Part shown: positions 5,723 to 10,854 of the stretch, in pieces
Numbering within the stretch: the stretch's first letter is position 1
Layout: every line of letters begins with the position of its first letter
Assembly (NCBI GenBank): GCA_947499145.1
Contig: CANMNB010000004.1
Span: 248,001-312,000, forward strand
From: an uncultured Arachnia sp.
GTDB lineage: Bacteria; Actinomycetota; Actinomycetes; Propionibacteriales; Propionibacteriaceae
Direction: 5' to 3'
DNA: 64,000 bases
Program-made: the position numbers and the translations under genes
The notes under the pieces: model-generated
What the model saw: only the letters and a program-made list of their open reading frames with translations
The model's database searches: none
What the model was told of the DNA's origin: nothing

Positions 5723-7996
5723 TCAGCTCCCGGCCAACCCCGCCACCTGGGAGTCGGACAGGACGTCGTCGAAGACCTTCAGCTCATCCATCAGGCCCTG
5801 GTATGGGGTGTCCCACCAGTTGACGCCGAGGGCGAAGACGGCGGAGGAGTCCTTGAGGACGTCGGGGAACCCAGTGCCCTCGTGGACGCGCACCCCGTCC
5901 ACCCAGGCGAGGATGTCGCCCGAGTCCACCGTGAAGGCGACGTGCGTCCACTCACCGGTCGGGATCTGGGAACCGAAGCTGGCGTCGTACCAGGCGGTGC
6001 CGGACCAGACCATCGACTCCATGGGTCCCCCGGGCCCTCGCGGGACCACACTCACCCACGAATCGACGTTCTGTGCAGCGAAGAACGTCGTTGTGTACTG
6101 CGACGTGGCCGTCGGATTGAGCCACAGTGACACCGACCACGTGGGACCGTGCACCAACCCGTCAGGCAGCCGGACGCCGGACGTGCCGTCGAACACGGCC
6201 GCTTGGCCCGCGACGCCGTCGGCGTACGTGATGGCGCCGCCGGCGTTGTCGATGCGGCTCCCGGTGACCGTCCCGGCACCCGCCTGCGGGCTGCTGAGGT
6301 CGCCGTCGAAGTCGTACTCCGCCACCAGCCCGGTCCCGGTCCGGGCGGGCACGGTGACCTGGAAGGTGACCTCTGCCGTGGCGTCTCCGTTGGTGATGGT
6401 GGCAGTCAGCGTCACCGTGGCATCCGCCTCGCCATTGTCCGGGCGGGTCACCACGCCTTGGGGCGAGATGACGGTCGGCATGGAGCTTGTCCAGGCGATG
6501 ACGGAGCCCTGCGTGCCGGCGGTGGGCAGATCGAGGTCGGTTGCGGTGGTGCTGGGCAGGTCCAGGTCCTCCGCCACCCGTTCGACGGCCTCCGCCGGGC
6601 TGACGACCTCGGTGCGGATGCCCCAGAGGGGGGCGCCGCTGTCCTGCAGTCCCGTGAAGGTCCAGATCCATTCGGCCCGATTCGGGTCGAACTGTCGGGA
6701 CAGCTCCGCCTCGACCACATCGCCGTCGAGGTGGAGCAGGATCCGGCTCTGGCCGTCGCGCTCCCACGTCCCGCTGAGTGCGCCGGTGACGTCGCCCTGT
6801 TGGGTGAGGGTGACCTGCTGGGCGGTGTGGACGTCGGCATCGATGTCCTTGGGGGCGTGGTCGACCACGGCCCACGTGCCGACGGCCTCGTGCCGTTTGG
6901 AGGTGCGCGGCTGTTCGCCGCCGTAGCGCAGCGGCGCGATGACCGGCCAGCCCTCCGCGTCGAGGAACATCTCGTGGACCCGAACCTGGTGCAGTTCTCC
7001 CTGTCCCGGGAAGCGGGTGTGGAAGATGAGGTAGGACTGACCGTCGACGGTGATGGGTGAGCTGCCCCCGGGGGAGACGTAGCCGATGCCGCGACCGGTG
7101 CCGGGATCTCCCGGCAGGCGCGCGAACTCGTGGTTCCCCATGAGCTTCACCGCGGTGGGCGCGATGGAGACGTCGTCGAAGAGTGGCAGGTCCGGATCGG
7201 CCTTCACCTCTGCCATGTCCTGGCCGGCCATGTCCACGTAGGGGCCGTCCGGGGCAGTGGATCGCGCGACCCGCACGTTGTATCCGCCGCTGGCGTCCAG
7301 GCCGCCGTAGGTGACGAACAGGTAGTAGTAGCCGGTCTCGGCGTCGTACTGCACCGCCGGGCCCTCGATGCGGGCGTGGTTGCCGCCCCAGAGGTGCGTG
7401 CCGTAGCCCTGGTCGGGCTTCGGGAAGCCGGTGGTCGGGTCGAGTTCGAGGATGAAGATGCCGCCGGAGAAGCTGCCGTAGACCATCCACCAGCGGCCCT
7501 CGGTGTCGGTGAAGACGTCCGGGTCGACGACGTTGGGATGGACGGTGGCGTCGTAGATGGTGCCGTCCTCGCTCTCCTGGCCCCACATGCCGGACTTGAG
7601 GAAGACGCCCTGGTCCTCATAGGGGCCGGTCACCTCGTCGGCGAGGGCCAGCCCCATGGCCGAGAGCGGGGAGTCGCCCCGACAGGCGTTGTAGTACATC
7701 GCGAAGCGGCCGTCGGGCAGCTGCGTGACGTCGGGCGCCCAGAGGGTGTCCGACTGCGCCCACTCGAGCGCCTCCGCGAGCTCCTCGGTGACGTCCTCGA
7801 AGATCGGATTGGCGGGGTTCACCCCCTCGGCCACCTGCTCCCAGGCGACGAGGTCGTCGCTCTTGGCGACCTGCAGGTGGGACCCGAAGACGTAGTGGAC
7901 CCCGTCCACCTCGATGTGGTCCGGATCGTGCACCGTGGCGTCGGCGAACTTGGGCGCGGGGGCCTGGGGCTGGGCCGGTGGGAGTGAACACAGCAC
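5723..7996 (-). CDS. multidomain GH43 endo-1,5-alpha-L-arabinanase; secretion signal missing or broken
   Basis: 757 residues from a GTG start. The GH43 five-bladed propeller (about 18-340) has HDPD near residue 24, VVDPDVF and ARIEGPAV as the catalytic aspartate/aspartate/glutamate regions. A GH43 C-terminal beta domain follows (about 370-465, ending in APLWGIR), then an atrophied bacterial Ig-like domain (about 470-550) and a LamG/concanavalin-like domain (about 555-757). This architecture belongs to secreted enzymes, yet the frame upstream of 7996 closes within nine codons at a TGA. The first residues (MLCSLPPAQPQAPAP) look like the tail of a signal peptide whose hydrophobic core is absent. 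Either the 5' end was lost or a frameshift lies just upstream. The catalytic domains look intact. Confidence 0.85.
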   Translation of the reverse strand: MLCSLPPAQPQAPAPKFADATVHDPDHIEVDGVHYVFGSHLQVAKSDDLVAWEQVAEGVNPANPIFEDVTEELAEALEWAQSDTLWAPDVTQLPDGRFAMYYNACRGDSPLSAMGLALADEVTGPYEDQGVFLKSGMWGQESEDGTIYDATVHPNVVDPDVFTDTEGRWWMVYGSFSGGIFILELDPTTGFPKPDQGYGTHLWGGNHARIEGPAVQYDAETGYYYLFVTYGGLDASGGYNVRVARSTAPDGPYVDMAGQDMAEVKADPDLPLFDDVSIAPTAVKLMGNHEFARLPGDPGTGRGIGYVSPGGSSPITVDGQSYLIFHTRFPGQGELHQVRVHEMFLDAEGWPVIAPLRYGGEQPRTSKRHEAVGTWAVVDHAPKDIDADVHTAQQVTLTQQGDVTGALSGTWERDGQSRILLHLDGDVVEAELSRQFDPNRAEWIWTFTGLQDSGAPLWGIRTEVVSPAEAVERVAEDLDLPSTTATDLDLPTAGTQGSVIAWTSSMPTVISPQGVVTRPDNGEADATVTLTATITNGDATAEVTFQVTVPARTGTGLVAEYDFDGDLSSPQAGAGTVTGSRIDNAGGAITYADGVAGQAAVFDGTSGVRLPDGLVHGPTWSVSLWLNPTATSQYTTTFFAAQNVDSWVSVVPRGPGGPMESMVWSGTAWYDASFGSQIPTGEWTHVAFTVDSGDILAWVDGVRVHEGTGFPDVLKDSSAVFALGVNWWDTPYQGLMDELKVFDDVLSDSQVAGLAGS

Positions 7997-8070
7997 CCGC
8001 CGAAACCGTCCGCCGAAACCGGGTTGCGATCACCGTTTACGGAGCCATCAGAGCGGCAATCACAGGCTCT

Positions 8071-8096
8071 CCACCAAAAACGATCGTTTTCGGTGG
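8071..8096. promoter_or_regulatory. 26-bp palindromic operator, LacI-type
   Basis: CCACC-A-AAAACGATCGTTTT-C-GGTGG is a palindrome with one mismatched pair, centred on a CG-containing core typical of LacI/GalR operators. It lies 75 bp upstream of the GTG start of the large GH43 gene (minus strand), where it could control that gene. Which of the three LacI proteins binds it cannot be told from sequence. Confidence 0.65.
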
Positions 8097-8321
8097 GGAT
8101 GCCGTCGACGTCGACCAGAGGGCCGACACGCCGAGGGATCGCCTGTAGATGCTCACGCTCAGTGGCGTGGTTCCAGGTGAGCAGATTGGCGTCACCCGAG
8201 CGGTCAGGTGGTCCGGTAGACCTCACGGCGAGCCGACCCGGCGGTATCGCCTTCGGAGCGGAATCTGCCGGACTTCGAGCTACACGACGCAATTCCGAGC
8301 AACACGTGCTTCGATACCTAC

Positions 8322-8636
8322 ATGACGAAGAACAAGATCCGCATCGCTTTCACCGCCCTTCTCGTTTCCCTCCTCGCTCTCACTGCCCTCCCCGCTCAGG
8401 CCTGGTCCTAGATGGACTACCAAGAGAACTTCTCCCTGAAATCGAACTGCCAGGCTCGTGGCCAGTGGCTCGTCAAAAACGTCGTCGACCTTGGAGCCTT
8501 CGAGTGTCGCTACAACAGCAAGTCACGCACATACAGACTATGGGTTCTGCGCGATGATGAGTTCGGCTGCCGAACCGCCTTGTCGGCGACCAGGAAGAGC
8601 ATCACTGCTCCGCAGGGATGCGGAGGCAGCGTATGA
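8322..8636 (+). pseudogene. small secreted cysteine-containing protein interrupted by an in-frame TAG
   Basis: From ATG 8322 a textbook signal peptide is encoded (MTKNKIRI, a hydrophobic core, then ALPAQAWS), followed by TAG at 8409-8411. The very next codon, in the same frame, is an ATG (8412) opening 74 residues with four cysteines (NCQ, ECR, GCR, GCG) and a TGA at 8634. Without the TAG this would be a 103-residue exported protein with two possible disulfides. It is either a recent nonsense mutation, a readthrough gene, or a secretion signal cut off from a cytosolic product started at 8412. I recognise no family. No good ribosome-binding site precedes 8322. The stretch is more A/T-rich than its surroundings (34 G/C of 60 in 8461-8520). 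Confidence 0.6.
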
Positions 8637-9031
8637 TTACACCTCCCGACGAACTGATCAACGATCTCCGCGAAGCAGTCGCAAAGAACCAGATCGCACA
8701 CTTCCTTCGTGACCCACACACCCAGGCAATCAGAGTTCTCGTGCACGATGAGACGGCCGGCCGGCACCTGGCCGACAAATGGCCTGGGCGGCTCCTCCTC
8801 GTCAACTCCCAGTGGACGGTAGACGAACTCACCCAGTTCGACTCGGTTATAGATGCCTTCCAAGGCCACGTACTCACTCACCAGGGCGGGATCAATCTCA
8901 ACACCATGCAGCCCTACGTGACCCTGACCGTGGATCGGGACACACCAGAGGTACAACACCTACGTAACGCCGTGCCCTCCACCTACCTCACGGTGAGGAT
9001 CAGCCCAGGCAGCGAGCCTCTGACCGCATGA
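8633..9031 (+). CDS. unknown 132-residue protein coupled to the split secreted protein gene
   Basis: The ATG at 8633 overlaps the TGA of the preceding frame (ATGA) and is preceded by CGGAGGCAGC, so translation is coupled and this start is preferred over the GTG/ATG codons further upstream. The product (MITPPDELINDL... to ...SPGSEPLTA) has no signal peptide, membrane segment or motif I recognise; it looks like a small cytosolic alpha/beta protein. The pairing of a small exported protein with a small cytosolic partner is reminiscent of effector/immunity or chaperone pairs, but nothing in the residues proves this. Base composition is low for the window (33 G/C of 60 in 8641-8700), suggesting acquisition together with its neighbour. 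Confidence 0.6.
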   Translation: MITPPDELINDLREAVAKNQIAHFLRDPHTQAIRVLVHDETAGRHLADKWPGRLLLVNSQWTVDELTQFDSVIDAFQGHVLTHQGGINLNTMQPYVTLTVDRDTPEVQHLRNAVPSTYLTVRISPGSEPLTA

Positions 9032-9305
9032 AATGACTCAGCGTTCGATCGTGGGGTCCCCTCGCCCAGGGCACGCGGTACCGACCCCTCGTCGTCAGCC
9101 AGCAGACCCACCCCGACCCACCCCCTTGGTGTGGTCGCACCTCTGAGTCTCGACAAGTTACAGGATTATAAGACAGGCTCGTGGAGGTCGTTCTTTTCCG
9201 GCGAGTCCCGCGGAGACGGGCGTCAGCGGGGGTGGCTCCGACGAGGGCCACCCCGACGGCCAGGGCCACGAGGGCCCTGGACCGCCGGAAGGCAAGCGAC
9301 AGCAT
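9000..9305 (-). pseudogene. orphan signal peptide: 5' remnant of a secreted-protein gene
   Basis: AGGAG precedes an ATG at 9305, 32 bp after the stop of the upstream GH51 gene, so this is positioned as the next gene of the glycosidase run. The first 29 residues are a classic Sec signal (FRRSR, then a hydrophobic core, then GATPADA). After about 9219 the frame runs into arginine-rich, non-protein-like sequence and ends at 9000 inside the oppositely oriented unknown gene. The mature domain is therefore missing. Either it belonged to another secreted enzyme now deleted, or it was once the start of the large GH43 gene that lies 1.2 kb further on and lacks a signal. The interval 9032-9218 holds no other gene that I can support. 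Confidence 0.55.
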
Positions 9306-9336
9306 TGTTGCTCCTGGGGGGTGAGGGGGTGGGTGG

Positions 9337-10854
9337 TCAGCCCAGTGTCAGCTCCAGGGTGATGAAGCTGTGGGCGGGGAGTTCGACGGTGAGTGTGCCG
9401 TCGGTGACAGCAGCGACGTCGAGGTCCTGGGGGGCCACGGCGTCGGGCTGGTGGGCGGTGTTGTGGGCGTTGATGGCGCCCGCGGTGAGGATGCGGCCGG
9501 TCAGGTCGGTGACCTGGTGGCCTCGGAGGTCGAGGGTCACCGAATGGGCGGCCTCGAGGTCGAGGTTGGACAGGGAGATGAGTGCTCGGCCGTTCTTGGT
9601 GGAGGCCGACGCGGAGACCAGCGGGAACTCGCGGTTGCCGACGGTGCGGGTGGGCAGGGCCTGGCCGGTCCAGTTGAGGGGGAGCAGGTCGGCGTCGTGG
9701 TGGCCCTTGTTCATCTCGAACACGTGGTAGGTGGGCGTTGTGATCAGCGTGTCGCCGTCGGTGAGGAGCATGGCCTGCAGCACGTTGACGGTTTGGGCGA
9801 TGTTGGCCATCACGAGCCGGTCGGCGTGGTGGTGGAAGGAGTCGAAGTGCACCGAGGCGACGAGGGCGTCGCGCATCGTGTTTTGCTGGTAGAGGAAGCC
9901 GGGGTTGGTGCCGGGTTCGACGGCGAACCAGGTGCCCCACTCATCGAGGACCAGGCCGATGCGCTTGGCGGGGTCGTAGACGTCCATGATGTTGCCGTGC
10001 CGGGTGAGGAGTTCATCGATCCGCCAGGCAGCGGCCATGGTCTGGTAGTAGGTGTCGGCGTCGAAGTCGGTGGCTGACTTCTTGTCCTCGAAGCCGGTGG
10101 GCATCGTGTAGTAGTGCAGCGAGATGGCGTCGAAGAAGTGGCGGGGGTTGCAGCCGCAGCCCAGGTCCCCGAGGGTCTTCATCAGGGTCTCGGTCCAGTG
10201 GTAGTCGTCGACGTTGGCGCCGCCGGCGATCTTGTAGAGCTTGTTCCCGTCGTGCTCGCGGCAGTAGGTGGAGTACTGGCGGGCGAGGTCGGCGTAGTAC
10301 TCGGCGCGCATGTTGCCGCCGCAGCCCCAGGACTCGTTGCCGATGCCCCAGTAGGTCACCTGCCAGGGCTCGTCGCGGCCGTTGCTGCGGCGCAGTTCGG
10401 ACATCGGCGCCTCACCGGAGCGGGTGAGGTATTCCATCCAGTCGGCCATCTCGCGGACGGTGCCGGAGCCGACGTTGCCGCAGATGTAGGGCTCGGTGCC
10501 GAGCTGCTCGATGAGGTCCATGAACTCGTGGGTGCCGAAGGAGTTGTCCTCCACGACATTGCCCCAGTGGGTGTTGACGACGGTGGGGCGCTGCTCCTTC
10601 GGGCCGACGCCGTCTCGCCAGTGGTACTCGTCGGCGAAACAGCCGCCCGGCCAGCGCAGGTTCGGGATGTCGATCGCGCGGAGGGCTTCGACGACGTCGG
10701 TGCGGATCCCGCGCACGTTGGGGATCTGCGAGTCCTCACCGACGAAGAACCCGCCGTAGATGCAGGCCCCGAGGTGCTCGGCGAAATGGCCGTACACGTG
10801 ACGCGAGATCGTGTGGCTGGTCACGTCGAGATTGATGACAGCGTTGAGGGACAT
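9337..10854 (-). CDS. GH51 alpha-L-arabinofuranosidase (distinct subtype)
   Basis: 505 residues, cytoplasmic. Acid/base Glu174 sits in [11 protein letters not shown] and the nucleophile Glu305 in [24 protein letters not shown] is also typical. The sequence resembles the hexameric GH51 enzymes of Geobacillus and Thermobacillus more than the other three GH51 proteins here, which share GNEMDGPW and DEWNVWY. A different preference among alpha-1,2, alpha-1,3 and alpha-1,5 linkages is likely but cannot be read from sequence. The ATG at 10854 lies 3 bp beyond the stop of the GH43 lipoprotein gene with AGGAG inside that gene's end, indicating an operon. Confidence 0.95.

Follow-up and report, generated by a model that had tools for sequence, protein, structure and literature searches.

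A probable nonsense mutation in a small secreted-protein gene on a foreign fragment in an uncultured Arachnia sp.

Recent nonsense pseudogenes are marked by a stop arising from a one-base change, an intact copy in a close relative and a remainder of the frame that has not decayed, and the gene considered here, at positions 8322-8636 of a window (the whole stretch of 64,000 nucleotides that was analysed) from an uncultured Arachnia sp., is like them in these respects. It is unlike typical nonsense pseudogenes in having no Pfam or NCBIfam family and in lying on a foreign fragment inside another disrupted gene. Its surroundings recall the res regions of actinobacterial plasmids (e.g., pS16-2 and pR912B), which precede an operon ending in a serine recombinase gene and likewise contain a dyad near CCGAAAACGATCGTTTTCGG and CCGAAAC repeats; in contrast with these regions, the window has pieces only, which are ordered differently and have no adjacent resolvase gene. 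There is also a likeness to integron cassettes, i.e., small genes in a row and a junction sequence that is repeated in a second species of the same genus (hereafter G003). The core motif of integron attC sites is GTTRRRY, and the crossover sites of serine recombinases are near-dyads; unlike attC, the 16-bp junction found here has no GTTRRRY core (by eye) and is nearly a dyad. In-frame stops are widespread in bacterial genes and do not always mean loss, as far as the consulted part of one report goes (PMC7918605).

The interrupted gene and its copy in a second species

The features of the gene and of its downstream neighbour are:
8322..8408, + strand: first part of the broken gene, a Sec-type signal peptide (recognised by eye) and two mature residues
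8409..8411, + strand: nonsense codon TAG, a tryptophan codon in G003
8412..8636, + strand: rest of the broken gene (74 codons, four of them for cysteine), without a family match
8622..8626, + strand: GGAGG, Shine-Dalgarno-like, six bases upstream of the gene at 8633
8633..9031, + strand: downstream gene encoding 132 aa, without any difference from G003 and without a family match above cut-off

The frame opens at ATG 8322, meets TAG at 8409-8411, resumes with ATG 8412 and ends at TGA 8634-8636 (translation MTKNKIRIAFTALLVSLLALTALPAQAWS, stop, MDYQ...GGSV, stop), and the reading given in the earlier note, i.e., 29 codons, TAG and then 74 codons with four cysteines in the same frame, holds. Cleavage of Sec signals usually follows the A-X-A rule and is predicted here after AQA (residue 27), which would place the TAG, codon 30, two residues into the mature part; the stop, earlier said to fall at the cleavage boundary, is therefore near it and not exactly on it. 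By itself, a stop followed by ATG is not rare in the window: when the ATG-initiated frame before the stop must have 25 codons or more, and the open frame after it 70 or more, the raw count over all six frames is 6, the broken gene being included by its lengths. That the two halves are one gene and not a chance arrangement follows from G003, where they are joined.

A stretch of 1,232 bp around the gene recurs in G003 and differs there at 7 bases (99.4% identity; DNA alignments of 1,136 bp at 99.47% and 112 bp at 99.1%, with a 16-bp overlap in common), namely window positions 8077, 8110, 8325, 8410, 9069, 9106 and 9165. At position 8410 G003 reads TGG (tryptophan) against TAG in the window, and its gene encodes an uninterrupted secreted protein of 104 residues in a stop-to-stop frame of 138 codons. 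The earlier note had listed a nonsense mutation as one of three options and had named a sense codon in a relative as the sign of it; this codon is present and supports that option, and a conserved TAG acting as a functional stop is rejected by the same observation. We consider it very probable that the TAG is a nonsense mutation and that the gene for a 104-residue secreted four-cysteine protein is now a pseudogene, lying within a 1.2-kb foreign fragment. The fragment would have been acquired recently by one or both of the two lineages, and a single G-to-A change in the window's lineage would then have turned TGG into TAG at codon 30, a direction suggested by the intact frame in G003, the only other copy found. 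The product would be lost or nearly so, leaving at most a 29-residue signal-peptide fragment, and ribosomes restarting at the adjacent ATG could yield some unexported 74-residue remnant.

Gene decay is further favoured by the host region, itself a disrupted GH43 gene, while the undecayed frame downstream of the TAG counts against loss by a nonsense mutation. Both differences inside the broken gene, Thr/Ala at 8325 and the nonsense change at 8410, alter the protein, in contrast to the 399-bp neighbour gene, which has 0 differences from G003; with 7 differences in all, such a distribution would arise by chance in about 6% of cases and is only suggestive. A base-calling or assembly error could account for the stop, as it depends on one base in one draft genome of 26 contigs, but the six other differences are spread through the insert and the copy seems diverged in its own right, making such an error extremely improbable. 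When the G003 protein was used to search 198 genomes of the family, the gene was found in two of them, the window's own genome (G000) with one TAG and G003 without, so that the stop is present in one of the two copies.

The frame that stays intact after the TAG would also agree with low-frequency readthrough, by which this strain would make a little of the secreted four-cysteine protein, and one source reports bacterial in-frame stops that are under purifying selection (PMC7918605). A recent mutation would likewise leave the downstream frame intact, however, the sole other copy found has a sense codon, and no PylS exceeds the cut-off, and we regard readthrough as very improbable. The whole-genome search for PylS gave two weak matches, of 30.2 and 19.5 bits against a curated cut-off of 178.15 (in control genomes, matches occurred in 13 of 14 and exceeded the cut-off in 1), and the window contains no tRNA genes; the earlier observation that the window shows no pyrrolysine genes agrees with this search, and pyrrolysine decoding is rejected as far as PylS goes. 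It is similarly highly unlikely that ATG 8412 gives a second product, i.e., a functional cytosolic protein of 74 residues. The stop and the ATG are adjacent, a geometry generally favourable to restart, and the 74-codon frame is open, but no GGAGG-like sequence occurs in the 15 bases preceding 8412, the same ATG corresponds to an internal methionine codon of the intact G003 gene, and the intact protein has a signal peptide and four cysteines that would suit an extracellular fold.

The earlier note had leaned towards a functional arrangement, partly because the downstream gene is coupled by ATGA. The TGA at 8634-8636 does overlap the ATG at 8633, which is a weak sign of function because the downstream gene, with a GGAGG of its own, could be translated independently of the broken one; as G003 has a plain sense codon, the leaning finds no support. 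No promoter or terminator consensus was seen in 7950-9350.

The gene is a rare one. Strong matches to the 74-residue part occur in two of 146 related genomes, G000 and G003; at E values up to 1 there are matches in 68 of the 146, the best beyond these two having an E value of 0.012. For the 132-residue protein of the downstream gene, 59 of the 146 genomes give matches, the next best at E 0.003, and no more distant relative of either protein is convincing at these values. Plasmid records yielded two matches to the 74-residue part (E 0.5 and 0.8) and none to the 132-residue protein or to the 104-residue G003 protein. There was no match in phages to the 74-residue part, nor to 7982-8140 as DNA, and none in the viral contigs searched. 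A locus in a Bacteroidetes record was rejected as a homologue, as it lies in another frame of a 404-codon gene (frames compared by hand). No Pfam or NCBIfam family exceeded its cut-off for the broken gene, its intact G003 form or the 132-residue protein, for which Slr4 scored 12.3 bits against a cut-off of 25.

The foreign fragment and the split GH43 gene

The fragment and the gene that it interrupts are arranged as follows:
7982..9213, + strand: foreign insert, 1,232 bp, 60.3% GC against 68.7% for the window
5723..7996, - strand: body of a GH43 glycosidase gene, parted from its own signal-peptide start by the insert
9219..9305, - strand: original GH43 signal-peptide start (MLSLAFRRSRALVALAVGVALVGATPADA)
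9181..9213, + strand: first 11 codons of a further G003 frame (GTG start), cut at the insert end

The insert lies inside a host gene: two relatives, G025 and G021, have the GH43 gene uninterrupted, and the insert ends are uncertain by a few bases, since alignment to the relatives breaks off at 7970 for G025 and 7962 for G021 and picks up again at 9217 or 9219. Export of the GH43 enzyme has probably been lost. G003 gave no match to this protein at E values up to 1e-20. Set against G003, the insert opens on the final codon of a glyoxalase-like gene, and, because both ends fall inside G003 genes, it seems to be a piece of some larger donor, without defined ends of its own. A transposon with terminal inverted repeats was considered and rejected, none being seen in the insert (by eye).

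Res-like pieces in the window and on plasmids

Judged by its sequence, the insert opens with pieces resembling the res site of an actinobacterial plasmid serine resolvase, and the fragment may well derive from a plasmid. The pieces are:
7996..8042, + strand: CCGAAACC repeats together with ACCGTTTACGG, similar to the accessory portion of a res site on plasmids
8078..8093, + strand: AAACGATCGTTTTCGG, putative serine-resolvase crossover core (site I), one copy in the window
8073..8135, + strand: 63 bp that share 90.5% identity with the sequence following tetR in plasmid pS16-2 and in a Corynebacterium faecale plasmid

Positions 7997-8028 share 26 of 32 bases with the Microbacterium plasmid pMspBDGP8B (E 5e-6 in a two-sequence comparison), the same comparison with the other seven plasmid loci being weaker (best E 0.006 to 0.36). 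The 63-bp stretch matches three actinobacterial plasmid records just after tetR (90.5%, 90.5% and, over 51 bp, 88.2%). The 16-mer AAACGATCGTTTTCGG is present in two of 142 related genomes, G000 and G003, and, among 396 genomes of the phylum, a 17-base form of the core occurs in two, G512 and the genome of the window.

On pMspBDGP8B, a similar site precedes a frame that starts like a serine resolvase (read by eye), and a query with this site and frame matched 43 plasmid records; among the best 40, 34 have a recombinase, resolvase or DNA invertase annotated under the match. With up to 6 mismatches, a dyad near CCGAAAACGATCGTTTTCGG was found at five of eight hand-picked plasmid loci, 153-238 bp before the start of the operon or resolvase:
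pS16-2: 2 mismatches, 175 bp before vbhA of a vbhA-fic-recombinase operon
Xylanimonas: 6 mismatches, 178 bp before a vbhA-fic-recombinase operon
Glutamicibacter pR912B: 1 mismatch, 178 bp before a hypothetical-fic-recombinase operon
Tessaracoccus flavescens: 4 mismatches, 238 bp before a hypothetical-nucleotidyltransferase-recombinase operon
pMspBDGP8B: 3 mismatches, 153 bp before a resolvase-like ATG

The dyad is absent at this threshold from L082, whose record ends about 100 bases ahead of the match, and from L083 and L084. The genes to the left of the dyad vary (SMR transporters with tetR; a DUF1905 pair; hypothetical genes), and metal ATPase and cadmium genes occur at plasmid loci where the dyad was not found. 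We read the dyad as a putative crossover site I of the resolvase and 7996-8042 as candidate accessory repeats.

Neither the window nor G003 has a complete res site with its own resolvase nearby; the window holds pieces only. Among the ten serine-recombinase loci of G000, G003 and G512, no dyad occurs at up to 4 mismatches, and one with 5 mismatches (L073) lies about 760 bases past the recombinase start, not upstream of it. Resident resolvases are rejected as the cognate enzyme, as none of the ten loci has the site upstream.

Two further loci were observed alongside. On the Paenarthrobacter plasmid pYJND-1 the res region is split between L062 3000-3110 and L084 3900-4060, its broken ends are TGTGGATCGCATCG and, in inverted orientation, TGTGAATCGCATCG, and a copy of CCAGAGCGC lies outside each of them (by eye); one of the parts is bordered by genes with the annotations Mu-type transposase, ATP-binding protein and recombinase, and the arrangement resembles the insertion of a transposon into the res site. 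In G512, of another family, a perfect dyad CGAAAACGATCGTTTTCG lies on the chromosome (C1:2964854-2964870, L067) a short way past a stop codon and downstream of a CCGAAAAC repeat, and resembles a further module boundary.

A possible slot for small modules

In G003, an extra 796 bp with a DUF4440 gene lies exactly between two copies of AAACGATCGTTTTCGG (within L041 5145-7172), and the window has the same junction without the 796-bp module and with a single copy of the core. A tentative and rather doubtful reading is that the broken gene travels as cargo in an actinobacterial cassette system, in which site I of a plasmid serine resolvase would be the entry slot for small modules. Such a slot may be likened to attC or pdif sites, but these serve tyrosine recombinases. 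The precise flanking is known from one example, the same junction would result if the DNA between two 16-bp repeats were simply deleted, and none of the ten resident serine-recombinase loci has the site upstream. Transposons that seek out res sites are described in the consulted parts of two reports (PMC7765201, PMC12217951). The literature found, as far as its available parts go, describes no cassette slot of this kind for actinobacterial plasmids, which is not proof of its absence. Near the array of small genes in G003 there are also two tandem copies of a 1,436-bp unit, 99.9% alike (L041 79-2906), with a transposase frame that we take to be ISL3-like, and a second transposase frame (L041 3068-4306), presumably IS256-like.

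The TAG itself is most likely ordinary gene decay, i.e., a mutation that recently cost a rare, acquired gene its function, and it illustrates that a stop between a signal peptide and its mature domain can look designed. The res-like junctions are more interesting than the TAG: if the cassette reading were true, actinobacterial plasmids would gain genes in an integron-like manner, via the site of a serine resolvase.
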